Assembly (NCBI RefSeq): GCF_000420765.1
Contig: NZ_ATVO01000008.1
Location: forward strand, 1-64,000
DNA length: 64,000 bases
Direction: 5' to 3'
Origin: Sandarakinorhabdus limnophila DSM 17366
GTDB lineage: Bacteria > Pseudomonadota > Alphaproteobacteria > Sphingomonadales > Sphingomonadaceae
The position numbers and the translations under genes were made by a program. Below are positions 6,055 through 40,162 of this stretch, in pieces (the stretch's first letter is position 1; each line of letters starts with the position of its first letter). The notes under the pieces were generated by a model. It was not told the DNA's origin and ran no database searches. It saw nothing but the letters and a program-made list of their open reading frames with translations.

Positions 6055-6117
6055 CAAGCGGTCGGGGAAGCGTTCGCCCCCTTGTTGCAAACGGCCTCGC
6101 CTGCTAGCGGCAGCGAC

Positions 6118-6405
6118 ATGTCTGTGGATAGCCAAACCGTACGCAAGATCGCGCGCCTGGCGCGGATCGCCGTCACCGATGATGAGGTGCCCGGCCTTGT
6201 CGAGCAACTCAACGGTATCCTTGGCTGGGTGGAACAGTTGGGCGAGGTCGATACCAAGGGGGTCGAACCGATGGCCAGCGTCATGCCCGGTAACATGCGC
6301 TGGCGCGAAGACGTGGTGACCGACGGCGGCATCCAGGACAAGGTGCTGGCCAACGCACCCGATGCGGCCAGCGGCTTCTTTGCTGTGCCCAAGGTGATCG
6401 AATGA
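6118..6405 (+). CDS. gatC: Asp-tRNA(Asn)/Glu-tRNA(Gln) amidotransferase subunit C
   Basis: This 95-residue subunit stabilises the GatA-GatB contact in the GatCAB enzyme, which amidates mischarged Glu-tRNA(Gln) or Asp-tRNA(Asn). The sequence opens [19 protein letters not shown] and carries the typical [11 protein letters not shown] helix and the VEPMASV segment. The start ATG at 6118 is the family-typical one; the frame stays open upstream but without homology. Its stop overlaps the gatA start in an ATGA arrangement at 6402-6405, indicating translational coupling. Confidence 0.95.
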
Positions 6406-7856: not shown

Positions 7857-7866
7857 TCGCGGCCTG

Positions 7867-8016
7867 ATGAAAGCAGTCGCTCCCAAAGAAAAACTGGCAA
7901 CGCGCGCAGGGCTGGCGCAGTTCCTGCGTTTCGGCTTGGTGGGCGTCGCCACTGATACGCCAAGCTGCGGGCTTGCAAAGCCAGACGACGCTGGCCATAG
8001 CGACAGACATGTCTGA
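7867..8016 (+). pseudogene. possible GtrA-like gene remnant between gatA and gatB
   Basis: A 49-codon frame starting ATG at 7867 reads [15 protein letters not shown] and then [15 protein letters not shown] before turning into unrelated sequence. The LRFGLVGVA segment resembles the first transmembrane helix of GtrA-family flippase-like proteins, which normally run to about 130 residues. The frame overlaps the gatB start by eight bases. It could be a decayed gene, or simply a leader region whose frame happens to be open. Evidence is thin. Confidence 0.25.
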
Positions 8017-9505
8017 AGCCCCAAACTACATCGTTAAGGGCGCCACCGGCGATTGGGAAATCGTGGTTGGCCTCGAAGTTCATGCTCAGGTGACGGCCAA
8101 AGCCAAACTGTTTTCAGGCGCCAGCACCGAATTTGGTGCCGAACCCAATGCGCAGGTGAGCCTGGTCGATGCCGCGATGCCGGGCATGCTGCCGGTAATC
8201 AACGGCGAATGCGTGCGCCAGGCGGTGCGGACGGGCCTCGCCATCGATGCACAGATCAACAAATGGTCGCGCTTTGATCGCAAGAATTATTTCTACCCCG
8301 ATCTGCCGCAGGGTTACCAGATCAGCCAGCTCTATCACCCGATCGTGGGCGAAGGCCATCTGGACATCGAACTGGACGATGGCACTAAGAAGCGCATCGG
8401 TATCGAGCGCATTCATCTGGAGCAGGACGCCGGCAAATCGGTCCATGATCTGCATCCGTCGATGTCCTATGTTGATCTCAACCGCTGCGGGTGCGCGCTG
8501 ATGGAGATCGTGTCGCGGCCCGATATTCGCTCGCCAGCCGAAGCCGGCGCCTATGTGGCCGGCTTGCGCCAGTTGCTGCGCTATGTCGGCAGTTGCGATG
8601 GCAATATGGACGAAGGCTCCATGCGGGCCGATGTGAACGTATCGGTGCGCAAGGCCGGCCAGCCCTTTGGCACCCGCACCGAAACCAAGAACGTGAACAG
8701 CGTGCGCTTCATCATGCAGGCGGTGGAACATGAAGCCCGTCGCCAGGTTGATCTGATTGAAAGCGGCGGCACGGTAATACAGGAAACCCGCCTGTTCGAT
8801 CCCGGCAGCAGCACCACCCGAGCGATGCGCGGCAAGGAAGACGCGCATGATTATCGCTATTTCCCCGATCCCGATCTGTTGCCGCTGGTGTTCGATGATG
8901 CATTCATCGCGCAGTGCCGCGGGAGCCTGCCGGAACTGCCGGCCGCCAAGCGCGCCCGTTATGAATCCACGCTGGGCCTGTCGCCGTATCTGGCTGCCGT
9001 GCTGTCGGCCGAGAAGGAAACGGCGGACTGGTTCGAAACCGCGCTAGCCGCCACGGCTGCGAAAGTCGGCCAGCCGGTCACAGAGGTGGCGCTGCGTGTT
9101 GCCAATTTCATTTCGAGCGATCTGTTCGGCGCGCTAAAGAAGTTGGGCAAGGAAATCGGCGACAGTCCGGTGTCCCCGGATGCGCTGGCCGAACTGCTGG
9201 CGCTGGCCGCCGATGGCACCTTGTCGGGCCCGCTGGTGAAGCAGGTGTTCGAAGCCATGCTGGAAACCGGCGAAGGCGCTGCCAGCATCGTTGAGCAGCG
9301 CGGGCTGAAGCAGGTTTCCGACACCGGCGCCATCGATGCCGCCATCCAGACCGTGATGGACGCCAACCCCAACAAGGTTGCCGAATATCGCAGCGGCAAG
9401 GACAAATTGTTCGGCTTCTTCGTCGGTCAGGTCATGCGCGCCATGGCCGGCAAGGCGGCACCGGGCGTGGTCAACGATCGGTTGAAGGCGCTGCTGGAAG
9501 TCTGA
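8009..9505 (+). CDS. gatB: Asp/Glu-tRNA amidotransferase subunit B
   Basis: This 498-residue kinase and tRNA-binding subunit of GatCAB phosphorylates the misacylated Glu or Asp and then transfers ammonia from GatA. Visible signatures are [13 protein letters not shown] at the N-terminus, [20 protein letters not shown], and [15 protein letters not shown] with cysteines of the metal site. The C-terminal YqeY-like helical tail ends in [16 protein letters not shown] 8009 gives the family-typical start [11 protein letters not shown]. It is separated from gatA by about 150 bases but almost certainly belongs to the same transcription unit. Confidence 0.96.
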
Positions 9506-9745
9506 TTCGAGGGCGGCGACGTACGGTGCAGCACCGAGGCCCAATCCGGCCCAACGGTTCAACTGGTCGCCGCAAGGGCGCAGTTCGTCGCTGATTGCTT
9601 GACGAAAGGTGAACAGCCGCCGTATCCGCCGGCCTCAAGAAGGCAGGATTGCGCTGGCGTTGGCGGCACATCCTGCAGGTCGTGTCTGTCGCGTTGGTGG
9701 CTTGTGTTTTTCGCTGCCAACTGCCGCAGGGGCGCATATTCGGCA

Positions 9746-10288
9746 ATGAATGTGAAATTCACTCCGCGTCTTCAGATGCAGGCTGCTGCCGCAGCCGTGT
9801 TGCTGGCTTCGGGCCTAGCCTTGGGCCATGTCGCAGCCCAGACTCCGGAATCACAGGCTGCTGCTCATCCTGTTGCCCCCGACCAGACGGCGCTGGTGGC
9901 CGCTGAACCGGAACAGCCCAAATTGAATGAGCGCCACGTCAATTGCGTGGCCAAGGTTGTCCACCACGAGGCTGGCAACCAGCCGCGCGAAGGCAAGATC
10001 GCCGTCGCCCATGTGCTGTTGAACCGGGTGAAGAAGGGCTTTGGCGACAATGTCTGCGCCGTGGCCAAGCAGCCCGGCCAATTCTTCCGCATTGATCGCT
10101 ATCACCCTGATCGCAAGAGTGACGGCTGGGCCGAAGCGGTGGACGTGGCCCGCGACGTGCTGGCCGGCGAAGCCCGCGACATATCGAGGGGCGCGCTTTA
10201 TTTCCACGCCAACTGGGCCAGGCCCAACGGCTTTTTCCGCAGCCGCACCAAGGTGGCGCGGCTCGACGATCACGATTTCTATCGCTGA
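9746..10288 (+). CDS. SleB-type cell wall hydrolase, exported
   Basis: This 180-residue protein has an N-terminal signal peptide (LQMQAAAAAVLLASGLALG, cleavage probably after HVAAQ) and a C-terminal Hydrolase_2/SleB domain. The domain shows HHEAGNQPREGKIAVAHVLL, NRVKKGFGDNVCAV, the aromatic-rich GQFFRI, and GALYFHANWARP. The glutamate in HHEAGNQ is the expected catalytic residue. Such enzymes cut peptidoglycan glycan strands in the periplasm, and in alphaproteobacteria they are thought to serve wall remodelling rather than spore germination. ATG 9746 is preferred because it places the signal peptide at the terminus. The 240 bases between gatB and this gene show no other feature. Confidence 0.85.
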   Translation: MNVKFTPRLQMQAAAAAVLLASGLALGHVAAQTPESQAAAHPVAPDQTALVAAEPEQPKLNERHVNCVAKVVHHEAGNQPREGKIAVAHVLLNRVKKGFGDNVCAVAKQPGQFFRIDRYHPDRKSDGWAEAVDVARDVLAGEARDISRGALYFHANWARPNGFFRSRTKVARLDDHDFYR

Positions 10289-10596
10289 TCCTGATTGCCG
10301 CTGGCCTGATCGGGCCAGCGCGCGGCTTTCACCCGATCCCACTGCTGTTTCAGCGCCGCACGCGGTCCATCAAGTCCGTGCGTGGCTGCCTGATCTGCGA
10401 GGCCGTGGGCGACAGCACTGATGCGCGCCGTGCGGGCGTCCGGTTCTAGCCCGTCGGCCCAGGCACCAAGCGCGTGGGCGTTGAGCATGGCCAGCATGAA
10501 GACAGCGATGCCCACGGCCACCGCCATCTGCGCGAGGCCGGACAAGCCCTGATCATCCGCCTCGACATCCACCGGTGAGTCAAACTGGTCGGCCAT
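10279..10596 (-). CDS. small single-pass membrane protein of the O-acyltransferase locus
   Basis: This 105-residue protein has an acidic N-terminus, one hydrophobic segment (LAQMAVAVGIAVFMLAML, roughly residues 22-40) and a charged C-terminal half. No family is recognised. ATG 10596 has AAAGGTG nine bases upstream and starts ten bases after the MBOAT stop, so it is the last gene of that operon. It may be an accessory or partner of the acyltransferase. Its 3' end overlaps the convergent cell wall hydrolase by ten bases. Confidence 0.65.
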   Translation of the reverse strand: MADQFDSPVDVEADDQGLSGLAQMAVAVGIAVFMLAMLNAHALGAWADGLEPDARTARISAVAHGLADQAATHGLDGPRAALKQQWDRVKAARWPDQASGNQDQR

Positions 10597-10605
10597 GCTC
10601 ACCTT

Positions 10606-12018
10606 TCAGAACTGATAATAAATGAAGGCGGCGACGCCTTCGAATCGCATCGCGTCGGTGAGCAAGATCGCCAGTCCGACGGCCAGCCCCAGCACCGGCG
10701 CCGGCCATGCCGCCACGCGCCGGCCCAGTGCAGGCAGCAGGGTGGGCGGCGTGAAATGAATGGCCAGGCCGAACGCAATCAGGCCGCACAGCAGCGGGCT
10801 GGCCAACGTCAGGCCAGGGCGGAAGGCCCAAAGCTGGCTGAAATAAGCCAGCGCGCCTTCCAGCGTGTCGGCGCGGAAGAAGATCCAGCCCGCCACCACG
10901 ATGTGGAAGATGATCAGGATGGCGATGGGCTTGGGCAGCGCGGGAAAGCCTTCCGGCCGCCATTCGCGCCACAGCCGCTCGATCGCCAGCACGCCGCCGT
11001 GCAGCGCGCCCCAGATCAGGAAGGTCCATTTGGCACCGTGCCAGAAACCGCCCAGCAGCATGGTGATCATCAGGTTGCGGCAGATGAACCAAACGCCGCC
11101 ACGGTTGCCACCCAGGCTGATGTAGAGATAGTCGCGCAGCCAGCTCGACAGCGAGATATGCCAGCGCCGCCAGAAATCCTGCAGCGAGGTGGCCCTGTAT
11201 GGCTGATCGAAATTGCGCGGGAAGCGATAGCCGAGCAGCGCCGCCAGCCCCACCGCCATATCGGAATAGGCCGAAAAATCGCAGTAGATCTGAACGGCAT
11301 AGCCATAGGCACCCAGCGCGAGATCAAGGCCGGTTTGCGCCGAAGGATCGAAGAAGGTCTTGTCCACCAGGCCCGTGGCGAGCTCGCTGGCCACAACCGT
11401 CTTCTTGAACAGCCCCCAGCAGATCAGCATCAGCGCAGTCGCCACCATGCCGCGTGTCAGCCTTGGCACCGCCTTGAATTGCGGCACCAGATGGCTGGCG
11501 CGCACGATCGGCCCGGCCACGAGGTGGGGGAAAAAGCTCATCAGCAGCGTGATGTCGAGGAAGCTGGCCGGGGCTGTCTGGCGGCGGGCGATATCGATCA
11601 GGTAGCTCATGCCCTGGAAGGTGAAGAAGCTGATGCCAACCGGCAGGATGATTTCCAGCACCGGCAGATCGCGGCCCCAGCCGGCGCGGGCAAGGATGGG
11701 GGCCAACTGTTCAAGGAAGAAGCCGAAATATTTGAAGAACCCCAATATGGCGAGATTGGCCGCCACGCCGATGCCCAGCCAGGGCTGAGCGCTGCGGCCA
11801 TCATCCAGCCGGCGCTGAATGGCCTGCGCACAGCCCCAGTTGATCGCCGCCGACGCGATCAGCAGCGCCACGAAGCGCCAATCCCAGAAGCCATAGAACA
11901 CCCAGCTGGCCAGCAGCAGGATGATCTTGCGCCATTCGTTCGACGCCAGCCCCACCGTCCAGACGAGCAGCAGCACAGGCAGGAAGAACAAGCCAAAATC
12001 CAGCGTGGGGAACAGCAT
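10606..12018 (-). CDS. MBOAT-family O-acyltransferase (AlgI-like)
   Basis: This 470-residue polytopic inner-membrane protein belongs to the family that moves acyl groups across the membrane for O-acetylation of exported polysaccharides. It opens MLFPTLDFGLFFLPVLLLVW and contains SFFPHLVAGPIVRASHLVPQ, YCDFSAYSDMAVGLAALLGY and DFWRRWHISLSSWLRDYLYI. The putative active-site histidine is in LLGGFWHGAKWTFLIWG. All of these are hallmarks of AlgI/DltB-type MBOAT proteins. The start overlaps the stop of the upstream SGNH gene as TGATG, so translation is coupled. The substrate glycan cannot be told from the window; no alginate or cellulose synthase genes are adjacent. Confidence 0.92.
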   Translation of the reverse strand: MLFPTLDFGLFFLPVLLLVWTVGLASNEWRKIILLLASWVFYGFWDWRFVALLIASAAINWGCAQAIQRRLDDGRSAQPWLGIGVAANLAILGFFKYFGFFLEQLAPILARAGWGRDLPVLEIILPVGISFFTFQGMSYLIDIARRQTAPASFLDITLLMSFFPHLVAGPIVRASHLVPQFKAVPRLTRGMVATALMLICWGLFKKTVVASELATGLVDKTFFDPSAQTGLDLALGAYGYAVQIYCDFSAYSDMAVGLAALLGYRFPRNFDQPYRATSLQDFWRRWHISLSSWLRDYLYISLGGNRGGVWFICRNLMITMLLGGFWHGAKWTFLIWGALHGGVLAIERLWREWRPEGFPALPKPIAILIIFHIVVAGWIFFRADTLEGALAYFSQLWAFRPGLTLASPLLCGLIAFGLAIHFTPPTLLPALGRRVAAWPAPVLGLAVGLAILLTDAMRFEGVAAFIYYQF

Positions 12019-13340
12019 CAGTGCAGCCCGCCCACCCGTGCCGCATCCAGATCGGCCAACAACAGCCGGGCCACTTCCACGCCGCCCGCCGCGGAATAAT
12101 GGATGAAATCCGGGCCCATCAGCCCGGCCTGCATCCAGCGCACCGCCGAACAGGCCCCGCCCTGCCGTGCCCGCCAATCCCAGAAGGCGATGCCCAGATC
12201 GGCCGCCACCCGGCGCTGCACGGCGCTGGCCGCGGCCAGCGCCGGCGGGTTGAACAGCGGCAGCCCGCGCCGCACGGCACGCGGCATCGGGCCGGACAGC
12301 GTCACCGGATCGGGCGCCAGCGTACCGCCTTCATCATTCCACAACGGGATGTCGATACCGTCCACCGGCAGGCGATCGGGGGTAGCCTGAATGGCACTGT
12401 TGCAATCAGTAGCACCGCCGGGCGCGCCGCCCACCACATTGTCCCTCAATTCACGGTTGCGGCTGGCGGCATCGGGCGGACCAAGCAGCAGGATCGGCAC
12501 CGGCCCAGCCAGCCGGCGGATGCGCGCCACCTGTTCGCGAATCTGGCTTTCCAAGCGCGTGGAGTCGAAAAAGGGCGCAAAGCCTTCGTTGGTGCCAAAG
12601 GCCAGGATCACCAGATCGGCCGGCAGCGCCTGAAACTGCGCGGCGATGGTCGCCTCATCGGCGCGCCCAAGGAATTGCAGCTGCGATCCCGGCACTCCCA
12701 GATTGGAGACGACGACACCGCTTGGCCGTTCCAGCCACCAGCCGGTGATGATCGCCTCGCCAGCGACCAGTTCCAGCCGCGCGCTGTCGGTGGCGGCGCC
12801 CGGCACGATGCGGCGGCACTGCGGGCCTTCGCCAGCAAAGGCCAGTTCCTGTGTGTCGGTGCCAAGGGTGAGATTGAGGCGCGGGCCATCAGGGCTGGCC
12901 ATCACACACAGGCCAAAGGCGGTAAAACTGGCGTCGGCGGTGAGCGCCAGCGCCGACCCCGGCGCGCTGCTGCTGACCGTATAACCCGTGATACCGCGCG
13001 GCGGCCAGGGTTCTGCAGCCCCGCTGCCGAACAGGCCGCGTACGCTCCACGGCCCGGACGTGGAGACGCTCACCCCGCGCAGGCGCACCCCGGCATGCGG
13101 GCGCCCGGCCGGCATCAGGCCGCGCCCGCCATTGCCCAGCCGCGCCTGCAATGCGTCGCGCAGGGCGCCGGTGATGGCATCGCCCGCCGTGTGCGAATCG
13201 CCGATCTGCACGATATGCACGGGGCGATCCGTGGGCATCTGTGCCGCGCTGAGCGGCACGCCCGCCAGATGCTCGGCCCCGCACAGCGCCGCCAGGCACG
13301 GCGCAGCGGCAAGCGCCAGCGATGCAAGCAACGCCGGCAT
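12018..13340 (-). CDS. exported SGNH/GDSL hydrolase, probable glycan O-acetyl transfer partner
   Basis: This 440-residue protein has an N-terminal signal peptide ([19 protein letters not shown]). Block I is IVQIGDSHTAGDAITGALR with the nucleophile serine in GDSH. Block III is FGTNEG, and a late DFIHYSAAGG supplies the Asp/His pair. This set matches periplasmic SGNH esterases or acetyltransferases that accept acetyl groups from MBOAT proteins (compare AlgJ/AlgX and PatB logic). It is joined by TGATG overlaps both to the upstream DUF459-like gene and to the downstream MBOAT gene, so the three products are probably made in balance. The direction of chemistry (transfer or removal of acetyl) is not settled by sequence. 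Confidence 0.85.
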   Translation of the reverse strand: MPALLASLALAAAPCLAALCGAEHLAGVPLSAAQMPTDRPVHIVQIGDSHTAGDAITGALRDALQARLGNGGRGLMPAGRPHAGVRLRGVSVSTSGPWSVRGLFGSGAAEPWPPRGITGYTVSSSAPGSALALTADASFTAFGLCVMASPDGPRLNLTLGTDTQELAFAGEGPQCRRIVPGAATDSARLELVAGEAIITGWWLERPSGVVVSNLGVPGSQLQFLGRADEATIAAQFQALPADLVILAFGTNEGFAPFFDSTRLESQIREQVARIRRLAGPVPILLLGPPDAASRNRELRDNVVGGAPGGATDCNSAIQATPDRLPVDGIDIPLWNDEGGTLAPDPVTLSGPMPRAVRRGLPLFNPPALAAASAVQRRVAADLGIAFWDWRARQGGACSAVRWMQAGLMGPDFIHYSAAGGVEVARLLLADLDAARVGGLH

Positions 13341-18409: not shown

Positions 18410-20395
18410 TTATTCCGCCGGAACCAGAGTGGGCGCAAGGGGTGACCGCACCTGCGGCGCGCCGATGCGGAAGCGGCGATCGGCCAGGCTGGCCGCGCCG
18501 CCCATCGCCATGAGGAGCCCGCCAAACCAGATCCAGCCCACGAGGGGATGCCAGTAGATGCGCACCACCAGCCCCTGCCCGCGTGCATCCTGCTGCACAT
18601 CGCCGATGGCGACATATTGATTGCCCAGCGGCGACACGCCGATGCCGGCTTCCGTCGTCTGGCTGCCCGAAACGGTGTAAATCCGGCGTTCGGATACCAG
18701 CGCGTGTTCGTTGCCGTTCTGGCTGACCGTGAAGCGGGCGCGCAGGGCACGATAATTGGCGCCGTCCACTTCCTCGGCGCCCAGCATGGTGACGCTCACC
18801 GGTCCGGCTGCGGCCGTTTCACCGGGGCGCATCACCAGGATCTTTTCAGCGGCAAAACTCGTCATCGTCGCGATACCGGCAGTGGTGAAACCCAGACCAG
18901 CGTGGGCCAATACAAGCCCGACGGTCGCCGCCGGCGTGGTGCGCACCAGCCGCCACGAAAAGCCGCCCGCGCCCCACCAGCGCCGCACCAGCACGAGCAC
19001 AGCGCCCAGCACCAGCCAGCCGCCGAGCGCGAGACCTAACGCGGCCACGACCTGCGCCGCGCCCAGCCATAGAGTCAGCCCGGCAAGCAGCGCCGCGATC
19101 ACGGCCACCGGCACCAGCAGTTTCTTGCCCAGCACCGCCAGATCATCGCGCTTCCATGACAGCATCGGCCCGATGGTGACGAGGATGAGCAGCGGCGCCA
19201 CCAGCGGCACGAAGACGAGGTTGTAATAGGGCGGGCCGACCGAAATCTTGTTGGTGGGCGACACGGCTTCCATAATCACCGGATAGAAGGTGCCGAGGAA
19301 CACCACCGCGGTGAGCGCCATCAGCAGCAGATTGTTGAAGGTGAGCCCCGATTCACGGCTGATGCTGCCAAACAGGGCGCCGGAACGCAGCATCGGCGCG
19401 CGGGCGGCAAACAGCGCCAGTGCCGTGCCGGTGGCGCCGATGATCATGGCGAGGATGAACACGCCGCGTTCCGGATCGACCGCAAAGGCATGCACCGAAG
19501 TGAGAATGCCGGAGCGGACAAGGAAGGTGCCGATCAGCGACAGCGAGAAGGCGAGAATGGCGAGCAGGATTGTCCAACCGGCGAGGCTGCCGCGCTTTTC
19601 GGTGACGATGGCCGAATGCAGCAGCGCCGTGCCGATCAGCCATGGCATGAAGCTGGCATTTTCCACCGGATCCCAGAACCACCAGCCGCCCCAGCCCAGT
19701 TCGTAATAGGCCCAGAAACTGCCCAGCGTGATGCCGCATGTAAGCGGCACCCAGGCCGCCAGCACCCACGGCCGCATCCAGCGCGCCCACGCCGGATCGG
19801 CACGGCCTTCCAGCAAGGCAGCGACGGCAAAGCTGAAGGTGACGGAAAAGCCGACATATCCCAGGTACAGCAGCGGCGGGTGGAAGACGAGGCCGGGATC
19901 CTGGAGCAACGGGTTCAATTCCGCGCCGTCGAGCGGCACCGGGAACAGGCGCTCAAACGGGTTGGACGTGAACAACGCAAAGGCAAGGAAGGCAACGCTG
20001 ATCATCGCCTGCACCGAAAGGATGCGCGCCTGCAGCGTGACGCGCAGATTGTCGCCAAAGCGCGCGATGCCAGCACCATAGATCGACAGCACCAGCACCC
20101 ACAGCAGCATGGAGCCTTCGTGATTGCCCCACGTCGCCGCCAGCCGGTAGGGCAGCGGTTGCGACAGGGCGCTGTGATTGGCGACCAGCTTGACCGAGAA
20201 ATCGGCCTGGCCGAACAGCGTCATCAGGCAGCCAAAGCTGATGGCGATCAGCAAAGCCTGCAAGGCCGCCGCGCTGCGCCCGAACGCCATCAGCGCCGCA
20301 TCCCCGCGGATCGCGCCCAGCATCGGCAGCACCGCTTGCGCAACCGCCACCAGCAAGGTGAGGATCAGGGCGAAATGGCCGATTTCGGCAAGCAT
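18410..20395 (-). CDS. ccmF: haem lyase CcmF
   Basis: This 661-residue polytopic membrane protein attaches haem to CxxCH cysteines together with CcmH/I. Family marks are ATWGNHEGSMLLWVLVLS, the tryptophan-rich WWD signature WGGWWFWDPVENASFMPWL, and conserved histidines including the one in ATWGNHEG. The length is typical. It is the first gene of ccmF-G-H-I; ccmA-E are not in the window. It is divergent from the flavoprotein at 20564, so the 168-base gap must hold both promoters. The neighbourhood suits a locus whose divergent partner needs ten covalent haems. Confidence 0.96.
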   Translation of the reverse strand: MLAEIGHFALILTLLVAVAQAVLPMLGAIRGDAALMAFGRSAAALQALLIAISFGCLMTLFGQADFSVKLVANHSALSQPLPYRLAATWGNHEGSMLLWVLVLSIYGAGIARFGDNLRVTLQARILSVQAMISVAFLAFALFTSNPFERLFPVPLDGAELNPLLQDPGLVFHPPLLYLGYVGFSVTFSFAVAALLEGRADPAWARWMRPWVLAAWVPLTCGITLGSFWAYYELGWGGWWFWDPVENASFMPWLIGTALLHSAIVTEKRGSLAGWTILLAILAFSLSLIGTFLVRSGILTSVHAFAVDPERGVFILAMIIGATGTALALFAARAPMLRSGALFGSISRESGLTFNNLLLMALTAVVFLGTFYPVIMEAVSPTNKISVGPPYYNLVFVPLVAPLLILVTIGPMLSWKRDDLAVLGKKLLVPVAVIAALLAGLTLWLGAAQVVAALGLALGGWLVLGAVLVLVRRWWGAGGFSWRLVRTTPAATVGLVLAHAGLGFTTAGIATMTSFAAEKILVMRPGETAAAGPVSVTMLGAEEVDGANYRALRARFTVSQNGNEHALVSERRIYTVSGSQTTEAGIGVSPLGNQYVAIGDVQQDARGQGLVVRIYWHPLVGWIWFGGLLMAMGGAASLADRRFRIGAPQVRSPLAPTLVPAE

Positions 20396-20503: not shown

Positions 20504-20527
20504 TCAAAGCGCTGCTACAGGCTTTGA
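20504..20527. promoter_or_regulatory. inverted repeat TCAAAGC-N10-GCTTTGA upstream of the redox module
   Basis: Two perfect seven-base arms lie ten bases apart, 37 bases before the flavoprotein start and 109 bases before ccmF on the other side. The symmetry and spacing suit a dimeric regulator. It is not a canonical CRP (TGTGA-N6-TCACA) or FNR (TTGAT-N4-ATCAA) site. It could also fold as a hairpin in the 5' leader. The function is inferred from position only. Confidence 0.45.
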
Positions 20528-20563
20528 ATCGAAGGGTGTGAGCCCGGGGGGGGCAAGATCATT

Positions 20564-23095
20564 GTGACGACGTACCGCATCGCGATTGTGGGATCGGGGC
20601 CTGCCGGGCTTTCGGCAGCGGCTCATGCTGCCAAGTTGGGGCTGAGCCATATCCTGCTCGAAAAGACCGACCATCTGTCGGATACGATCTACAAATACCA
20701 GAAGGGCAAGCATGTGATGGCAACGCCATCGCAACTGGTTCTGCGCTCGCCGCTGGATTTCGAAGCCGGCAAGCGCGAGGTTATTCTGGGCACCTGGAAT
20801 GAGCAGACGGCCGCCGCCGGCGTGAACGTCAAGCACGGCGCTGAAGTGAAGAACATCGTTGGCACCGGCGCGCCCATCCCCGGATCGGTGATGCCGATCG
20901 TGAGCCGCAACCGCGATGGCACGACCAGCACGACCGAACTGCAGCGCAACGCCCCGCCCTATCGCCTGACGCTGGTGAGCGGCGAAGAGATCATGGCCGA
21001 AACCGTGATCATGGCGCTCGGCACCCAGGGCAACCCCAATCTGATGGGCTGCCCGGGTGGCAACCTGCCTCATGTCCAGTACCAGCTCGACGATCCCACC
21101 GAATATACCGACGAACATATCTTTGTGATCGGCGGCGGCGATGCCGGGATCGAAAATGCGCTGGGCCTGTGCGCCGATCCGGCGCAGAACAACACGGTCA
21201 CGCTGATCAACCGTACTGCCGATTTCCCCACCGCCAAGGATGCTAACGTCAAGGCGCTGATGGCGGCGCGCGATTCGGGGCGCATCAGCATCATGGCCGA
21301 AGCCAACACCACAGCGGTGGAACCCGGCTTCATTACGGTTGAAACCCGCGATGGCGAAGTGCGGGCGCGCTGCGACCGGATTATCGCCCGTATCGGTTCG
21401 GCACCGCCGCGCAGCTTTGTCGAAGGCTGCGGCATCGAATTTGCCAGCGCCGACCGGCTCGCCTTCCCCAAGCTTTCCGCCACCTTCGAATCGACCGCGC
21501 CGGGCATCTATGTCACCGGCGCGCTGGCCGGCTATCCTTTGATCAAGCACTGCATGAACCAGGGCCACGACGTGGTGGAGTTCATCAACGGCAATCTCGA
21601 TCTCAAGCCCGCCGACGAACCGATCCTGGAAGCCAAATTTGCCGGCCTGCCCGGCAAGCGCAGCGTTGCCGAATGGCTGGAATATTTGCGGACAAGCGTT
21701 TCGATCCTGAATGGCATGAGCAGCCTGCAGATACGCGAATTCATGCTGGACTCGAGCGTGAAGCGTTATGCGCAGGGTGAGGTGATCTTCGAACGCAACG
21801 CCCCCGGTTCATCGCTGTTCGGCATTGCCGATGGCGAGGTGGTGGTGGAAGTGAATCCAAACGATCCGTCCATAACCGTGTCAATCGGCACCGGGCAGAT
21901 TTTTGGCGAAGTCGGCCTGATTTCCGGCCGGCGGCGCGGGGCGACCATCAAGGCCGCGCGCGATACCATCGTGGTGGAAATCAGCCGCAATGCCGCGCTG
22001 AAACTGATGAGCCAGGTGCCATCGGCATCGCGCGAGATCACCCGCATCAACACCGAACGCACCTTGCTGCAGATCTTCAAATCAGGCCTCGCGCCCGCCG
22101 ATCTGGTCGACGTGATCGCCGGCGCCAAGGTGGAAACCATCCGTTCCGGCCAGGCCATCATCAAGGAAGGCGAAACCGGCGACGACATCTTCATCATCCG
22201 CTCCGGCTCGATGGTGGTGGAAAAGTCGATCGGCGGCAAACCGGTGTTCCTCAGTTATGTTCCCGCCGGCAGCTTTGTTGGCGAGATGAGCGTGATCGAC
22301 GGCAGTGCGCGTTCTGCCACGGTGCGCGCGGCGGTGAAGAGCGACGTGATCCGCCTTTCGGGCGAACCGTTCCGCGCGCTGCTCGCCACCAAGCCGCAAT
22401 TGCTCGACAAGTTGCGCGGCGAAATGGCCAGCCGCACCCAGCTCAACAATTTTGTCGAATCCAAGAAGGACAGCTTCTCCGGCGTGGTCGACATGTACAC
22501 CGGGGTGGCAAACTTCCTGGTGGAACAGGGCCTGGGTGAAGCCACCGACGTGCTGCTCATCGATGAGAAATTGTGCGTTGGTTGCGACAATTGCGAGAAG
22601 GCCTGCGCCGATACGCATGACGGCCTGTCGCGGCTGGATCGCGAGGCCGGGCGCACCTATGCCCATCTGCATGTGCCGACCAGCTGCCGCCACTGCGAAC
22701 ATCCGCACTGCATGGCCGATTGCCCGCCCAACGCCATCCACCGCGGGCCCACCGGCGAAGTCTATATTGATGAAACCTGCATCGGCTGCGGCAACTGCCA
22801 GCGCAACTGCCCCTATGGCGTGATCCGGCTCGACAAGACGCCGCCGAAAAAGCCGTGGCTGCTCAGCTGGTTCATGTTCGGCAGCGGCCCCGGCCCCGGC
22901 GAAGCCAGCCACAAATGGGCCAAGAAACATGATCCCGCCTATGCCGAAAAGGCCAAGAAGGCGATAAAGTGCGACATGTGTTCGGGCCAAGAAGGCGGCC
23001 CGGCCTGCGTGCGCTCTTGCCCCACTGGCGCTGCCATTCGTGTCTCGCCGGAACAATTCCTCGGTGTCGCCCTGATGAAACGGGAGGACCGCTGA
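20564..23095 (+). CDS. FAD oxidoreductase with two cyclic-nucleotide-binding domains and a four-cluster ferredoxin domain
   Basis: This 843-residue cytoplasmic protein has several domains. Residues 1-330 form a two-dinucleotide-binding flavoprotein of thioredoxin-reductase type, with IVGSGPAGLSAAAHA near residue 8 for FAD and VIGGGDAGIENALG near 187 for NAD(P). The redox-active CxxC of thioredoxin reductases is absent. Two cNMP-binding domains follow. The first has FGEVGLISGRRRGATI (Gly448-Glu449) and the second VGEMSVIDGSARSATV (Gly573-Glu574), with the phosphate-binding Arg present. From residue 671 comes a DmsB/NrfC-like domain with sixteen cysteines in four groups (CVGCDNCEKAC, CRHCEHPHCMADC, CIGCGNCQRNC, CDMC...CVRSC), enough for four [4Fe-4S] clusters. 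The GTG start follows a G-rich stretch. Its TGA overlaps the next ATG. Likely role: cNMP-controlled electron transfer from NAD(P)H to the membrane partner (inference). Confidence 0.85.
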   Translation: MTTYRIAIVGSGPAGLSAAAHAAKLGLSHILLEKTDHLSDTIYKYQKGKHVMATPSQLVLRSPLDFEAGKREVILGTWNEQTAAAGVNVKHGAEVKNIVGTGAPIPGSVMPIVSRNRDGTTSTTELQRNAPPYRLTLVSGEEIMAETVIMALGTQGNPNLMGCPGGNLPHVQYQLDDPTEYTDEHIFVIGGGDAGIENALGLCADPAQNNTVTLINRTADFPTAKDANVKALMAARDSGRISIMAEANTTAVEPGFITVETRDGEVRARCDRIIARIGSAPPRSFVEGCGIEFASADRLAFPKLSATFESTAPGIYVTGALAGYPLIKHCMNQGHDVVEFINGNLDLKPADEPILEAKFAGLPGKRSVAEWLEYLRTSVSILNGMSSLQIREFMLDSSVKRYAQGEVIFERNAPGSSLFGIADGEVVVEVNPNDPSITVSIGTGQIFGEVGLISGRRRGATIKAARDTIVVEISRNAALKLMSQVPSASREITRINTERTLLQIFKSGLAPADLVDVIAGAKVETIRSGQAIIKEGETGDDIFIIRSGSMVVEKSIGGKPVFLSYVPAGSFVGEMSVIDGSARSATVRAAVKSDVIRLSGEPFRALLATKPQLLDKLRGEMASRTQLNNFVESKKDSFSGVVDMYTGVANFLVEQGLGEATDVLLIDEKLCVGCDNCEKACADTHDGLSRLDREAGRTYAHLHVPTSCRHCEHPHCMADCPPNAIHRGPTGEVYIDETCIGCGNCQRNCPYGVIRLDKTPPKKPWLLSWFMFGSGPGPGEASHKWAKKHDPAYAEKAKKAIKCDMCSGQEGGPACVRSCPTGAAIRVSPEQFLGVALMKREDR

Positions 23096-24000
23096 TGGCC
23101 AGCAAGACACAGGCCAGCCGGGCGATGACCGGCAAGGCCGTCACTCGCGCGCCGCGTGACACCGCGCACGAGGGCTTCCTCAATCACAAGCGCGGGCGCT
23201 GGGCCAAGGTGGCGATCACCCTGAGCGTGGTGGCCCTCGGCGCTTATCTGCTCACCGATCCGGTGCCGCGCCACAATGGCGGCACCTGGCTGGGCTATCT
23301 GCTCGGCAGCATCGGCGCCGGCATGATCGTCTGGCTGTCGCTGCTGGGCGTACGCAAGCGCGTGATCGGATCAAAGCCGTTCAGCCTGAAGGGCTGGACC
23401 AGTGCGCACGTCTATCTGGGTCTGTCGCTGATCGTCGTGGGCACGCTGCACACCGGCTTCCAGCTGGGCTGGAACGTGCACACGCTGGCGTGGGCGCTCA
23501 TGATGATCGTAATCCTGTCTGGCCTGTGGGGCATCAGCCTCTATGCGACCCTGCCCGAACGCTTGTCGGCCAACCGCGGCGAGGTCACGCAGTTGCAGAT
23601 GCTGGAAGCAATCCGCACCCTCGATCGTCAGCTCGACATAGCCGCACAGCCGCTGGATGCCGACGACGCGGCGCTGGTGCGGATGAGCCTGGAAGATTGC
23701 CGCATCGCCGGTTCGCTGGGCCAGCGTTTGTCGGGCAATTACGCCAATGATGGCAACGCCCGGGCGCTGGCGATCATCATCGAAAAGGTGATGACTGGCC
23801 GGCGCACCGGCCGGGTCGATGATCGCCTGGAGCAGATCGAATTCCTGCTGGAAAGGAAGGAGGCGGCGCTGGCCCAGGCCCGCCGCCATATACGTATGAA
23901 AACTCAATTGGAATTGTGGCTTTACGTGCATGTGCCGGTAACGATCGCGCTGCTGGCAGCATTGCTGGCGCACATCATTTCCGTGTTCCTGTACTGGTAA
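23095..24000 (+). CDS. five-helix membrane protein, probable di-haem cytochrome b of the redox module
   Basis: This 301-residue protein has hydrophobic segments near residues 39-57, 65-90, 104-122, 128-150 and 275-300, and a long soluble stretch at about 160-270. Histidines sit inside or at the ends of the helices: His105 (SAHVYLG), His119 (GTLHTGF), His129 (NVHTLAW), His279 (YVHVPV) and His293 (AHIISV). That pattern fits two b-type haems, as in cytochrome b561 or the ferric-reductase fold, though no family signature is certain. Its ATG overlaps the flavoprotein TGA, and the decaheme gene follows 13 bases later. It probably carries electrons from the ferredoxin domain across the inner membrane. 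Confidence 0.75.
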   Translation: MASKTQASRAMTGKAVTRAPRDTAHEGFLNHKRGRWAKVAITLSVVALGAYLLTDPVPRHNGGTWLGYLLGSIGAGMIVWLSLLGVRKRVIGSKPFSLKGWTSAHVYLGLSLIVVGTLHTGFQLGWNVHTLAWALMMIVILSGLWGISLYATLPERLSANRGEVTQLQMLEAIRTLDRQLDIAAQPLDADDAALVRMSLEDCRIAGSLGQRLSGNYANDGNARALAIIIEKVMTGRRTGRVDDRLEQIEFLLERKEAALAQARRHIRMKTQLELWLYVHVPVTIALLAALLAHIISVFLYW

Positions 24001-24013
24001 GGGGGAGGCGGGC

Positions 24014-25945
24014 ATGAGCTTTATCGTTCGCCAGGTCGCCAAGCGCGCCGATGGTGGGGACATCATTCGCACCCGCACGTTGGTGCAGGCCGAATTGACC
24101 GTTGGCAGAGGCACGGATTGCGATATCCAGCTGGCCGATCTGGCCGTGATGCTGCGCCACGCCCGGCTGGTGCAGATTACCGCCGGCAAGGTAAGTGTGG
24201 AAACCACCGGCGGTGTGCCGGTGGAAGTGGGCGGCAAGTTCGTCACCCGCGCCGATCTGGCCGTGGCCGAGAATCCCACCATCGATATCGGCCCGTTCCG
24301 GCTGTCGCTGTCCCCCGGGGAGGACGGCGCCGTTGCCATCACCGCCGAACGCGTGGTGCCGCCGATCGAAGCCGCCGATGCGGCGCATGAAACCAGCATC
24401 TTCTCGCTTTCCGGCGCGATGCCGACCAAGCGCCGCATGGCGTGGATTGGCGGGCTGGCGGTGCTGGTGCTGCTGTTGCTGGTGCCGCTGTTCCACTTCA
24501 TCGGTGAAGGCGAACCCGCACTGCCCCAGACGATGGTGGCTGAAGCCGCCCGGCCGGTCACCCCCGGCCAGGGCTTTGGTGATGGAAAATTGTCTGTCCC
24601 CACGGCCCGGCCCGCGGCTGCCGGCGGCTTTGCCCCGGATGAAAGCTGGTCGAGCGGCACGCTCTCAGATGCCCACGCCAGCCTGTCCAACAATTGCAGC
24701 GCCTGTCACCAGAAGGCGTTTGTTTCAGTGACCGATGGCGCCTGCCAGGCGTGCCACACGGCTTCGGCCCTGCCCGATCACGCTGCACCGGCACGCATGG
24801 CCAAGGGCCGGCTGCCCGACGGCGGCGTGATGGGCGCCGCGCACAGCGCCTTCAATCTGCCGCAGGGCCGCTGCACCAGCTGCCACAAGGAACATGAAGG
24901 CGCAGCCACCGTCATGACCGTGGCGGAAAGCTTCTGCACCGATTGCCACGGCGGCCTGAAATCGCGCCTTGCCGATACGGCGGTCGCCAACGTGCCGGGC
25001 TGGGCCAAGCACCCGGATTTCCGGGCCACGCTGGTCTCCTCGCCATCGGCGGACAAGCCGGTCTTCACCCGCACCGCCCTCGCCGGCGCGCGGGAGAAAT
25101 CGGGGCTGATCTACCCGCACGACATCCACCAATCCACCACCAACGCGGTTGCCAACATGGCACAGAAACAGCGGCTGCCGCAGGGTGCCGATGGCGCCCT
25201 GCCCTGCAGCTACTGCCACAAGGCCGATAGTGACCAGGTGCGGTTCAAACCGATCGACATGGAAGCCAATTGCGGCGCCTGCCACGATTTGGCCTTTGCC
25301 CGCGATGGCGGCACCGTCCGCACACTGCCGCACGGCAAACCCGCCCAGGTGGCCGGCATCATCCGCGATTTCACCCTGTCCGAAAGCTTTGCGCCGCGCG
25401 CTGGTGTGCAACGCCTGAGCTTTGATCGTCACCTGCCCGGCAAGGCGCCGCCGCCGCTGCCCGGCGGCAATCCGGCGGCCCGCGCCCAGGCGGCCGTGGT
25501 GAGCGTGTTTACCGGCAAGGGCCTGTGCACGGAATGCCATGTCGTCACGGATACCGGTGCAGCCGATCTCACCCGGCGTTTCGCCATCGCCCCGGTCAGC
25601 ATCAACGATCATTATCTGCCGCAGGGCCAGTTCCCGCATGGCAAGCACAAGAGCTATGACGCCAAGACCGGCCAGGCCGCCTGTGTCGCCTGCCACACCG
25701 GCGTGACGAAATCCAAGGTCTCCACCGACGTGAACATTCCCGGCGTTGCCAATTGCCGCGAATGCCACGGCGCTCCGGCGAAGACCCTGCTCAGCACTAC
25801 GGCCAAGGCCGGCGCCAGTTGCGACACCTGCCATGGCTTTCATGATGGGGTTGCGCCCACAGGTGCGCTCCCCGCCGGCCATGTCCAACCCGCCCGGGTT
25901 GCCGGGCGGCAGGCTGCTGGCCGCAGCCGGCAGACACCGGCCTGA
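24014..25945 (+). CDS. membrane-anchored FHA-domain decaheme c-type cytochrome
   Basis: This 643-residue protein has three parts. Residues 1-120 look like an FHA domain (VGRGTDCDIQL, then LRHARL), which in other proteins recognises phosphothreonine. A transmembrane helix follows at about 143-164 (AWIGGLAVLVLLLLVPLF). The rest is periplasmic with ten CxxCH haem-binding motifs at Cys228, 244, 287, 308, 398, 420, 505, 557, 581 and 603. Between motifs there are further histidines able to serve as distal ligands. The last 30 residues are basic. There is no classical signal peptide; the internal helix must act as the export anchor, leaving FHA in the cytoplasm. It is the third gene of the module and needs the divergently encoded Ccm proteins. 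The electron acceptor is unknown. Confidence 0.85.
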   Translation: MSFIVRQVAKRADGGDIIRTRTLVQAELTVGRGTDCDIQLADLAVMLRHARLVQITAGKVSVETTGGVPVEVGGKFVTRADLAVAENPTIDIGPFRLSLSPGEDGAVAITAERVVPPIEAADAAHETSIFSLSGAMPTKRRMAWIGGLAVLVLLLLVPLFHFIGEGEPALPQTMVAEAARPVTPGQGFGDGKLSVPTARPAAAGGFAPDESWSSGTLSDAHASLSNNCSACHQKAFVSVTDGACQACHTASALPDHAAPARMAKGRLPDGGVMGAAHSAFNLPQGRCTSCHKEHEGAATVMTVAESFCTDCHGGLKSRLADTAVANVPGWAKHPDFRATLVSSPSADKPVFTRTALAGAREKSGLIYPHDIHQSTTNAVANMAQKQRLPQGADGALPCSYCHKADSDQVRFKPIDMEANCGACHDLAFARDGGTVRTLPHGKPAQVAGIIRDFTLSESFAPRAGVQRLSFDRHLPGKAPPPLPGGNPAARAQAAVVSVFTGKGLCTECHVVTDTGAADLTRRFAIAPVSINDHYLPQGQFPHGKHKSYDAKTGQAACVACHTGVTKSKVSTDVNIPGVANCRECHGAPAKTLLSTTAKAGASCDTCHGFHDGVAPTGALPAGHVQPARVAGRQAAGRSRQTPA

Positions 25946-26069
25946 TGCGCGGCGCCCCTTATCATCGCCGCATCGTTGCGTCAGTTGCTGCCTTCGTGCC
26001 GTATCTGGTCAGGCAACGGCCATCTGGGGGGCAGCCCGCGCGTTGTGAGTCGACGCATAGAGGCGCGAG

Positions 26070-26924
26070 ATGCTGATTGCCCAGGTGACCGATATCCACC
26101 TTGGTTTCCAGCCGGATGATCCGGCGGAAATGAACCGCAAGCGCTTCGACGAGGTGGTGGAATCGCTGCTGGCGCTCACTCCGCAGCCCGATCTGTTGCT
26201 GGCCACCGGCGATCTCAGCGAAAGCGGCAGCATCACGTCTTATGAGACCCTGAAAAGCATCGCCGAACGTCTGCCGTTTCCGGTGCATTTCGCGCTGGGC
26301 AATCATGATCTCAGGGCCAATTTCCGCAGCGTCTTTCCCGATGTGCCGGTGAGCGGCACCGGCCATGTGCAATATGCCTTCGTGCACGGCCCGCTGCGCT
26401 TCGTGGTGCTCGACACGCTGCAGGAAGGGCACCACGGCGGCGCGCTTTCCGCCGAACAGGCCACGTGGCTGGATGAAACGCTGCTGGAAGACAATCGGCC
26501 GACCGTGCTTGTCCTCCATCACCCGCCAATCGAAAGCGGCAACGGCTGGATGACCGAGGATCTGCATGCACCCTGGGTACAGCGCCTGGCCGAAGTGGTG
26601 CGCCGCCACCCGCAGATCATCCGCATGATCACCGGGCACCTCCATCGCGCCATCGTCACCGGCTGGCACGGCACCACGCTCGCCGTGTGTCCCTCATCGG
26701 CGCCGCAAGTCGCCATCGATTTTCGCGAGATCGACGGTGAGAATCCCGATGGCCGCGACATGATCGTGGCTGAACCGCCTGGCTTTGCGCTGCATTACTG
26801 GACTGGGCGCGACCTGATCAGCCATTTCTGCGCCGGCGGCGAACACCCGGTGCTGGCCCGCTACAACGCGCGCATGCAGCCGACGGTTCAGCATATCCTG
26901 GCAGAGCGCACCGAGGCGCAGTGA
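26070..26924 (+). CDS. metallophosphoesterase, CpdA-like cyclic nucleotide phosphodiesterase
   Basis: This 284-residue cytoplasmic protein has the complete set of class III phosphodiesterase metal motifs: QVTDIHLG (DxH), LLATGDLSESG (GD), FALGNHDLR (GNHD), VLHHPPIESG and MITGHLHRAIV (GHxH). This matches CpdA, which hydrolyses 3',5'-cAMP to AMP. The length is close to the family norm. It starts 124 bases after the decaheme gene on the same strand and is followed by a terminator at 26966. Substrate choice (cAMP, cGMP or another phosphodiester) cannot be fixed by motif. Its position beside a protein with two cNMP-binding domains suggests it turns off their ligand. Confidence 0.82.
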   Translation: MLIAQVTDIHLGFQPDDPAEMNRKRFDEVVESLLALTPQPDLLLATGDLSESGSITSYETLKSIAERLPFPVHFALGNHDLRANFRSVFPDVPVSGTGHVQYAFVHGPLRFVVLDTLQEGHHGGALSAEQATWLDETLLEDNRPTVLVLHHPPIESGNGWMTEDLHAPWVQRLAEVVRRHPQIIRMITGHLHRAIVTGWHGTTLAVCPSSAPQVAIDFREIDGENPDGRDMIVAEPPGFALHYWTGRDLISHFCAGGEHPVLARYNARMQPTVQHILAERTEAQ

Positions 26925-39179: not shown

Positions 39180-40147
39180 TGCGGTGCTCCCGGAAGGGTG
39201 GCGGGATCAACGACACCGGTGGCCGGATATTCGCGGGCAAAGCCGTGATCGACCGCCCACAGGAACCAGTTGTCGACAACCGTGCCGGTGAGCAGGATGC
39301 CGATGCCGCCCGTGAGCGTCGTCAGCACTGCAAACCACCAAGCCCAACGGTGGATGGATTCCATCGTGGCGTTCCAGCCCATGGTCCAGCGCCAGAACAG
39401 CGCTGCACGTTCAGAGGCAGTACCGCGATCGGTGATCTGTTCGATTTCGCGTTCGCCGCCATAACGGCCCACCGCGAGGATGGTCGCGCCGTGCATGGCG
39501 AACAGCAGGGTCGATCCATAAAGGAAGGCGATGCTGAGCGCGTGGAACGGATTGTAGAACAGATTGCCGTAGCGGATCGAGAAGGCCGCGGTCCAATCCA
39601 GGTGCGGGAAGATGCCGAACGGCACCGCTTCGGCCCAGCTGCCCATCATCATCGGGCGGATGAAGCCGAGCACGAGGTAGAGCCAGATCGCCGAGCCGAA
39701 GGCCCAGGCCACGTGCGTGCCCATGCCCAGTTCCTTGGCGCGCACATAAGTGCGGGCCCACCACAGCAAGATGGACGCCGTGAGGAAGAAGCCGGCGGCA
39801 ATCCACCAGCCGCCTTCGTTCAACGGCACGCCAACGGTGAAGCCATATTTGGCGGCCGGCGGTTCAAGCGCGAGCCAGAAGAACTGGCGCACGAACTGGA
39901 TCGGATCCCAGTTCACCGATGCCGCCATGTTGAGACCCATGATCTCGATGGCGATGAAGCCACTCAGCAGAGAGGCGATGCCGAGCTTGCCGAGGTAGAC
40001 GGGACCAAGCTGGGCGCCGCCCAGCTTGCCCATCAGCCACGACGTGCCGAACGGACCAAAGCGCTCATCGTTGTGAGGACCAAGCGGAACGCCGGCTTCC
40101 AGCTCACCACGGAGCTGTACCTGCGTGAAGATGTTTTGATATGCCAT
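39176..40147 (-). CDS. pufM: photosynthetic reaction centre subunit M
   Basis: This 323-residue, five-helix inner-membrane protein forms the reaction centre core with PufL. Key histidines are His202 in [11 protein letters not shown] (special-pair bacteriochlorophyll), His219 in [10 protein letters not shown] and the one in [12 protein letters not shown] (non-haem iron). The Glu ligand to iron lies in the GGEREIEQ loop. It opens [19 protein letters not shown]. The gene lies 15 bases after pufL and overlaps pufC with ATGA. Confidence 0.98.
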
Positions 40148-40162
40148 GGCGCGTCCCTGTCC

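Follow-up and report, generated by a model that had tools for sequence, protein, structure and literature searches.

Extracellular electron transfer (EET) is known mainly from anaerobes. In the MtrCAB, MtoAB and PioAB conduits, and in Geobacter Pcc, the path is made of an inner-membrane cytochrome, a periplasmic multihaem carrier and an outer-membrane barrel with a large multihaem cytochrome, and the system that we propose here would be built likewise. One part of it was found in a stretch of 64,000 nucleotides from Sandarakinorhabdus limnophila DSM 17366 (contig NZ_ATVO01000008.1, positions 1 to 64,000; the window), which sits on our contig C8 of a 2.6-Mb genome. Three consecutive open reading frames (ORFs) of the window encode a flavoprotein with two cyclic-nucleotide-binding (CNB) domains (FLAV), a five-helix membrane protein (TM5) and a decahaem c-type cytochrome (DECA), and are followed by a metallophosphoesterase gene (CPDA). 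We propose, with a probability of about 0.6, that this trio forms the input half, at the inner membrane, of a conduit in two parts that would span the envelope and take electrons of NAD(P)H to the cell surface, independently of quinones and in response to cyclic nucleotides. Unlike MtrCAB-type conduits, it would take its input from an NAD(P)H flavoprotein and not from quinol.

The inner-membrane entry proteins CymA, CbcL/MtrH/MtoC and ImcH are described in parts of PMC6295460 as quinol oxidases and/or quinone reductases. According to the same source CbcL joins a nine-haem c-type part to a HydC/FdnI-like dihaem b membrane part, much as TM5 and DECA would do together. In contrast to CbcL, the locus described here has separate genes, ten haems c, a subunit with FAD, four [4Fe-4S] clusters and CNB domains, and a domain like the forkhead-associated (FHA) domain; we propose no quinone site for it, although its sequence is compatible with one. 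FLAV is fused to TM5 or lies directly before it. The main text of PMC6295460 contains none of the words NADH, flavoprotein, 4Fe-4S and cyclic nucleotide, and the main text of a survey of outer-membrane multihaem cytochromes (PMC11475568), its supplements aside, mentions neither sphingomonads nor Alphaproteobacteria. Among the papers listed in a search of the openly available literature, no title or start of an abstract describes the trio or the second gene module introduced below.

In our model NAD(P)H would reduce the FAD of FLAV in the cytoplasm, and electrons would pass through the four [4Fe-4S] clusters of FLAV to the haems b of TM5, first the one held by His105/His279 on the cytoplasmic side and then the one held by His119/His293 on the periplasmic side. 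Electrons would leave TM5 for the ten haems c of DECA, and the FHA-like domain of DECA would reach into the cytoplasm and give DECA a hold on FLAV. From DECA they would proceed through a tetrahaem cytochrome (C554) to a large cytochrome (GIANT), made together with a candidate barrel (BARREL) and an HbpS-like protein (HBPS), and finally to an acceptor at the surface; no quinone would be required along this path. Binding of cAMP or cGMP to the CNB pair, which lies between the flavin and Fe-S parts of FLAV, would switch the flow, and the neighbouring phosphodiesterase CPDA would reset the signal. The steps within the trio are proposed because of the domain order, the fusion of FLAV with TM5 in some genomes and the invariant ligands, the step from DECA to the second module because of co-occurrence and clustering, and the outward direction because flow from NAD(P)H would be downhill. 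Haem binding, direction, complex formation, the location of GIANT, quinone independence, cyclic-nucleotide control and the acceptor of the conduit are inferences of the model.

FLAV, TM5, DECA and CPDA are all on the plus strand. The FLAV stop codon and the TM5 start codon share one base (TGATG); the gaps that follow are 13 bases between TM5 and DECA and 124 bases between DECA and CPDA. These coordinates bear out the three closely packed, co-directional genes of the original prediction, a note made from the sequence alone; its range of 20504-26924 held the right genes, whereas its first 60 bases (20504-20563) lie upstream of the trio. Pfam domains scoring above their gathering scores were Pyr_redox_2/3, two cNMP_binding domains, 4Fe-4S, cytochrome c7/c3 and Metallophos.

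Residue conservation in FLAV was determined from an alignment of 88 sequences, which are related rather than independent: the window, 79 loci from a scan of named records and eight distant ones. The named loci are the best 80 of 519 confirmed and are biased toward near relatives. All 16 cluster cysteines were invariant (88/88), as were Glu449/Arg458 and Glu574/Arg583 in the phosphate cassettes of the two CNB domains, down to an overall identity of 43%; by analogy with CRP and PKA we take these residues to contact the nucleotide. A hydropathy scan of eight relatives gave one membrane helix in the FLAV part of L039 and none in that of the other seven, and FLAV was therefore taken to be cytoplasmic. 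The Pfam domains and conserved cysteines agree with the cytoplasmic NAD(P)H-flavoprotein with two cyclic-nucleotide domains and four Fe-S clusters that had been predicted. The best NCBIfam match of FLAV was TIGR04018 (116.7 bits; cut-off 339.9), and none of the 25 matches shown out of 151, among them YpdA, CRP and AegA, reached its curated cut-off. AegA/YgfT and HycB-type ferredoxin fusions also combine an FAD/NAD(P)H part and several [4Fe-4S] clusters in a single protein. However, the AegA and YgfT scores of FLAV (72.4 and 46.2 bits) are below the equivalog cut-offs of 1003 and 1154, the alignment is best in the ferredoxin part only, and FLAV has the CNB pair in addition.

TM5 is a probable dihaem b cytochrome, with two helices that carry an H-x13-H pattern. 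In an AlphaFold2 (AF2) model (predicted local distance difference test score, pLDDT, 80.8) its five long helices fit membrane spans. His105 and His119 of helix 3 are 14 residues apart in 85/85 sequences, and His279 and His293 of helix 5 have the same spacing in 84/85, with a gap in the remaining one; His129 is also conserved (84/85). In cytochrome b of the bc1 complex and in NOX enzymes, two helices with such histidine spacing hold stacked bis-His haems b. The five-helix protein with paired histidines had been anticipated correctly, but the single haem b placed in the chain by the original prediction gives way to two, which the four conserved histidines (105, 119, 279 and 293) would fit. At E≤1, Ni_hydr_CYTB weakly matched 49/50 TM5 members (best 5.7e-8) and Ferric_reduct matched 15/50 (best 0.0011). 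Two genomes (L040 and L041) encode FLAV and TM5 as a single protein, with TM5 at the C-terminal end. The fusion places the N terminus of TM5 inside, from which the assignment of the histidine pairs to the two membrane sides in our model follows, and it strengthens the order of electron carriers within the trio, which was supported as originally drawn. Transmembrane reductases of the NOX/ferric reductase type, to which the Ferric_reduct matches point, move electrons from NAD(P)H to FAD and then across the membrane through two stacked bis-His haems b, like the proposed trio. The trio differs from them in having its flavin on a YpdA-like protein of its own and four Fe-S clusters between flavin and haem, and its electrons would continue to haems c. 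Another TM5-like protein was detected weakly (E 3.5e-4) at L048 (G268:C5) 7404-8291; it has a weak Ni_hydr_CYTB match, and a DUF1622 protein is encoded nearby.

The ten CXXCH sites of DECA were kept as aligned Cys, Cys and His columns in all 80 sequences. The motif count was ten in 78 of them and nine in L040 and L041, where one site has a longer spacing. Nine additional histidines were conserved in 80/80 and a tenth in 73/80, and these fit distal ligands. The closest PDB match of the c-type part was the c7-type structure 3ov0 (E 3.2e-16), which we take to be from a Geobacter-like source. DECA also passed PF22113 (MtrC/MtrF domain II/IV) with 32.9 bits against a gathering score of 30, and 27/35 members matched it at E≤0.01. 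A hydropathy scan placed one membrane helix at a similar position in seven of eight relatives and none in L043, and the KRR ahead of the helix suggests that the FHA-like domain is inside and the haems outside. An inner-membrane-anchored periplasmic decahaem cytochrome had been predicted and is upheld by the ten conserved CXXCH sites and the Pfam cytochrome c7/c3 domains, whereas the N-terminal FHA-like domain had been missed. At E≤0.01 this domain was matched by PF16697 (Yop-YscD_cpl) in 32/35 members and by PF00498 (FHA) in 32/35, the window DECA itself falling below both gathering scores, and the family profile retrieved PDB structures of the FHA proteins GarA and OdhI (best E 2.8e-7). Of the FHA ligand residues, G31/R32 were conserved in 80/80 and H49 in 77/80. 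The serine of SxxH (position 46) was E, D, N, T, M or A in 73/80, and serine occurs among the other seven (L041). Since the serine is replaced in at least 73/80 sequences, a docking role is more likely than phospho-reading, and the FHA-like domain of DECA probably docks FLAV.

We determined the range of the trio in 296 genomes of the order and in a phylum-wide set of 398 genomes. At E≤0.001 TM5 was found in 86/296 order genomes, with 74 strong matches (E no higher than 7.3e-82) and 12 weak ones (E of at least 7.0e-11), and FLAV was found at E≤1e-60 in 15/398 phylum-wide genomes. In all seven FLAV-positive genomes outside the host family (f1), namely G296, G328, G444, G445, G544, G653 and G645, the order FLAV-TM5-DECA is kept, with FLAV and TM5 fused in two of the seven. 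Among the named loci TM5 begins within 200 bp of FLAV in 76/77 measurable pairs and DECA within 62 bp of TM5 in 72/72. Chance adjacency of the three genes was ruled out by their order in distant genomes, the FLAV-TM5 fusion and a large-cytochrome profile identical to that of the trio. Conservation outside this strain, which the original prediction had itself proposed to check, was found in 74/296 order genomes and in order in 7/7 genomes outside f1; the libraries searched gave no curated match of the trio to a characterized enzyme. Most named relatives belong to the Sphingomonadales, and some records carry the label Phenylobacterium or just Alphaproteobacteria; genera among the carriers include Sphingobium, Novosphingobium, Erythrobacter and Phenylobacterium, and FLAV is present on at least twelve Sphingobium plasmid records. 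Besides a complete trio, G296 carries another FLAV paralogue that has neither TM5 nor DECA next to it (L042, G296:C17:46000-63000, 6485-8962). A remote version occurs in another family of the order (L047, G010:C2:106000-122000, 3855-12218), with a TM5-like protein of 29% identity (E 7e-11), a flavoprotein with 4Fe-4S domains, an ankyrin/Sel1 protein, and two cytochromes, one of 520 aa with 21 CXXCH motifs and one of 858 aa with 33.

A second module emerged when all ORFs around 88 loci (80 named and eight distant) were clustered. GIANT, a protein of about 1,350 aa with a hydrophobic, signal-like N-terminal start, ten CXXCH motifs and C-terminal LVIVD repeats, is near the trio in 32/88 loci; BARREL, of about 610-660 aa and without a Pfam match, is near it in 31/88, and HBPS, of about 650-790 aa and HbpS-like (PF03928), in 7/88, many loci ending before the position of HBPS. 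C554 is a tetrahaem cytochrome c554-like protein (PF13435). The order-wide search covered GIANT, and C554, HBPS and BARREL were seen where loci were fetched. At E≤1e-30 GIANT was found in 74/296 order genomes, exactly the 74 with a strong TM5, and in 0/222 others. Of these 74 genomes, 41 have the two genes within 25 kb of each other; in 14 they share a contig at a greater distance, and in 19 each is on a contig of its own. Both presence and absence of the trio and GIANT are seen, among the genomes listed, in at least seven genera (g2, g3, g4, g6, g7, g16 and g20), so that the match between TM5 and GIANT does not stem from one inherited event. A Fisher test of this match takes no account of kinship among the genomes, and its value should not be read at face value. 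As a control, the patchily distributed reaction-centre profile PF00124 was found in 29/74 trio genomes vs 22/222 others. In the phylum-wide set GIANT was found in 11/398 genomes, all within the 15 that have FLAV.

The gene order of the second module was also conserved. C554-HBPS-BARREL-GIANT lie on one strand in this order in 9/9 order genomes that were fetched, out of 74 (L141-L149). The Sphingobium herbicidovorans plasmid pMSHV has the same arrangement, judged from the order and sizes of its genes and, for C554, from tblastn as well; next to its c554-like gene is a 6.3-kb gene whose product is called a hypothetical protein (L176 30409-30502; NZ_CP020539.1 794671-800949). Both modules occur together in two other lineages. 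G653 has the second module, with an additional ORF within it, directly behind the trio, and G645 has HBPS-BARREL-GIANT-C554 after the trio. In the genome of the window, the second module is on a different contig, C4 (L141). DECA had been taken as the last member of the chain, but it is probably not the end since the second module co-occurs with the trio; the "complete wire" that had been drawn covers only the inner-membrane half, and a probable periplasmic and outer-membrane half elsewhere in the genome was overlooked.

All 38 long GIANT sequences have ten CXXCH motifs, those from L141-L152 having been pre-chosen for at least eight. GIANT scored 14.4 and 13.4 bits against PF22113, below the gathering score of 30, and neither DECA nor GIANT matched the NCBIfam models for OmcA/MtrC (TIGR03507) or DmsE/MtrA (TIGR03508). 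For C554 the TIGR03508 and TIGR03507 scores were 24.8 and 17.2 bits (cut-offs 192.2 and 209.3). A lipoprotein-type signal with its cysteine was recognized by eye in 11/12 HBPS starts, the twelfth start being over-long. An AF2 model of the Sphingobium BARREL was poor (pLDDT 52.6); it has 18 long strands and resembles the outer-membrane protein AlgE (Foldseek E 1.7e-10). BARREL of Sphingobium fuliginis (L067) and of the window's genome, G000 (L141), matched no NCBIfam family at E≤0.1 and no Pfam family, in libraries that presumably include a model for MtrB.

The same chain could instead power a single reductase at the surface or in the periplasm, with GIANT or HBPS reducing haem or ferric iron for iron gain, or an oxyanion such as selenite or tellurite for detoxification. 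We consider this unlikely, although several observations favour it. HBPS belongs to the HbpS-like family and has a lipoprotein-type start, the carrier genera are presumably mainly aerobes with no obvious need for extracellular respiration, and the best NCBIfam match of GIANT is ExtM of a Geobacter selenite/tellurite operon (58.7 and 67.4 bits). Parts of PMC5877670 describe the Geobacter extHIJKLMNOPQS genes as encoding a porin-like barrel, several multihaem cytochromes, an inner-membrane b cytochrome and a Rieske protein, and report ExtH and ExtKL as Fur-regulated. Yet the resemblance of GIANT to ExtM is remote, its scores lying far under the equivalog cut-off of 800 bits, and the Ext gene list, as given in those parts of PMC5877670, is without a cyclic-nucleotide-binding flavoprotein, unlike the trio. 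Fur-like patterns (up to six mismatches) were no commoner before FLAV (2/80 stretches) than in shuffled sequences (8/400), and a series of ten-, four- and ten-haem proteins looks to us like wiring.

Electrons might also flow inward, an extracellular donor feeding the cytochromes and FLAV reducing NAD(P)+. Multihaem chains are reversible, and the window carries reaction-centre genes (two PF00124 matches at 39239-40900, about 12 kb from CPDA); the organism could use extra reductant. Formation of NAD(P)H would nevertheless call for a donor of very low potential and a coupling site is not evident; in addition, 45/74 trio genomes are without reaction-centre genes. We regard inward flow as very improbable. 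The same counts bear on the link to phototrophy that had been suggested: reaction-centre genes are enriched among trio genomes, as given above, but phototrophy as a requirement for the trio was rejected.

CPDA is strongly linked to the trio. It is related to the phosphohydrolase 2dxl and to Rv0805. Sixty-nine named loci extend 2.5 kb or more past DECA, and in 61 of them CPDA begins no more than 800 bp after it. Among the eight exceptions it is 2.2 and 4.9 kb away in two and some 5.5 kb away, where the locus ends, in two others, and four have none within the stretch covered. Its NCBIfam scores fall below the equivalog cut-offs of both CpdA (98.2 vs 225 bits) and SpdA (115.6 vs 400), so of the CpdA-like phosphodiesterase predicted to follow the trio, the metallophosphoesterase was confirmed but cAMP specificity was not. 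In G105 a CPDA-like gene (L146 6662-7517, G105:C2) adjoins the large cytochrome and not DECA, as if travelling with the system.

Intact CNB cassettes, together with matches to PF00211 (class III cyclase domain) above cut-off at four places in the window's genome, would permit binding of cAMP or cGMP to FLAV and control by it, and are permissive only. Another view is that the CNB and FHA-like domains are structural docking elements, with neither cyclic-nucleotide nor phosphorylation control, which would be compatible with the other alternatives. Loss of the serine of SxxH in most FHA-like domains is in keeping with this, and many CNB folds elsewhere bind no cyclic nucleotide. The invariant Glu and Arg of both cassettes in 88/88 sequences, the four cyclase-domain matches and the linked phosphodiesterase-like gene (61/69) argue in the other direction, and we think it rather unlikely that docking is the sole function.

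To look for transcriptional signals, the 300 bases before FLAV were scanned in 80 stretches (the window and L049-L128), with five crude two-base-block shuffles of each as the null. With up to two mismatches, CRP patterns were found in 14/80 stretches vs 33/400 shuffles and FNR patterns in 15/80 vs 20/400; perfect Dnr-type half-site pairs occurred in 2/80 vs 19/400. The FNR/CRP excess could be real or could come from relatedness and the weak null. For part of the group, the FNR-like patterns might point to control by low oxygen.

Several results weigh against the proposal that the trio feeds a conduit to the cell surface. The window TM5 scored only 12.4-12.5 bits against Ni_hydr_CYTB (PF01292; gathering score 30.1), it has no Pfam match above gathering score, and a Foldseek comparison of its AF2 model with the PDB gave no match at E≤0.001. 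The scan of 80 upstream stretches did not find a regulator box common to most FLAV upstream regions. C554 in the window's genome (L141 15567-16960) is split by a frameshift into overlapping ORFs of 160 and 304 aa, whereas it is in one frame in three same-genus relatives. With about 18 strands, BARREL is small compared with MtrB, and a haem-filled pore is not to be presumed. In G445, HBPS and BARREL lie beside the trio on a contig that ends 0.3 kb past BARREL, and GIANT was not found in the rest of the genome either. In G296, G328 and G444 (76% complete) the trio is present and GIANT and BARREL were not found; HBPS was not sought, and one of the two GIANT searches of these genomes had an internal positive control and the other had none. 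The trio can therefore have other partners. It might even act at the inner membrane as an NAD(P)H:cytochrome c reductase for periplasmic acceptors, the outer module being a frequent but separate client, as these three genomes and the solitary second FLAV of G296 would allow. Against this, TM5 and GIANT are never found apart in the order (74/74 and 0/222), even with mixed presence in at least seven genera, and both modules come together in G653 and G645. Such a separate role appears improbable to us, and we retain the two-part conduit as the preferred explanation.

Table 1. Coordinates of the trio, its parts and its neighbours in the window.
Feature	Position	Strand	Basis and remarks
FLAV	20564..23095	+	843 aa, GTG start; Pfam, NCBIfam, PDB sequence matches, distant-relative alignment
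FLAV FAD/NAD(P)H-binding part, aa ~4-345	20573..21598	+	PF13738/PF07992; remotely YpdA/thioredoxin-reductase-like
FLAV CNB domain 1	21737..22033	+	Pfam, alignment; Glu449/Arg458
FLAV CNB domain 2	22115..22399	+	Pfam, alignment; Glu574/Arg583
FLAV ferredoxin part, four [4Fe-4S] sites	22553..23038	+	Pfam, 16 Cys in alignment
TM5, five-helix membrane protein	23095..24000	+	AF2 model, His conservation, Ni_hydr_CYTB matches among members
DECA, decahaem c cytochrome	24014..25945	+	643 aa; sequence, Pfam, alignment, profile matches
DECA FHA-like domain, aa 20-101	24071..24316	+	PF16697/PF00498, GarA/OdhI profile matches; predicted cytoplasmic
DECA single membrane helix, ~aa 143-165	24440..24508	+	Sequence, hydropathy scan; KRR before it
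DECA ten CXXCH sites	24695..25834	+	Alignment
CPDA, CpdA/SpdA-like metallophosphoesterase	26070..26924	+	D-x-H, GD, GNHD and GHxH motifs; Pfam/NCBIfam
CcmF/NrfE-family haem lyase (cytochrome c maturation)	18410..20395	-	TIGR00353, 634.8 bits (cut-off 569.05); divergent upstream neighbour, accessory

The genes around the trio were also compared. A ccmF/nrfE-related gene lies upstream of FLAV in 13/88 compared loci, and in the window dnaN is downstream of CPDA on the opposite strand. The representative of a cluster of 138-aa upstream ORFs had no Pfam match. Genes for glutamate dehydrogenase, thiamine pyrophosphate (TPP)-dependent enzymes and aldehyde dehydrogenase found nearby were taken as ordinary neighbours.

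The trio and the second module together constitute an unnamed, conserved electron system whose input and sensor would be new within the extracellular-electron-transfer kind. Only tentatively, and with somewhat less than even confidence, do we regard it as a distinct class of EET, widespread in sphingomonads and found in other Pseudomonadota too, one that would draw directly on NAD(P)H, be gated by a second messenger, be docked through an FHA-like domain and use an unnamed outer-membrane module. It would deserve a class of its own if the acceptor is extracellular and the CNB pair is a valve. If that reading is true it would be, to our knowledge, the first conduit of cytochromes across the envelope whose enzyme itself carries an allosteric cAMP/cGMP valve. 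The S. herbicidovorans record annotates the trio and CPDA as cyclic nucleotide-binding domain-containing protein, hypothetical protein, cytochrome c3 family protein and metallophosphoesterase, and the second module as multiheme c-type cytochrome, hypothetical protein, heme-binding protein and cytochrome c family protein. These eight generically annotated genes, two of them merely hypothetical proteins, would gain partners. Electron export would then be wider than assumed, tapped straight from the NAD(P)H pool and switchable post-translationally by cyclic nucleotides.

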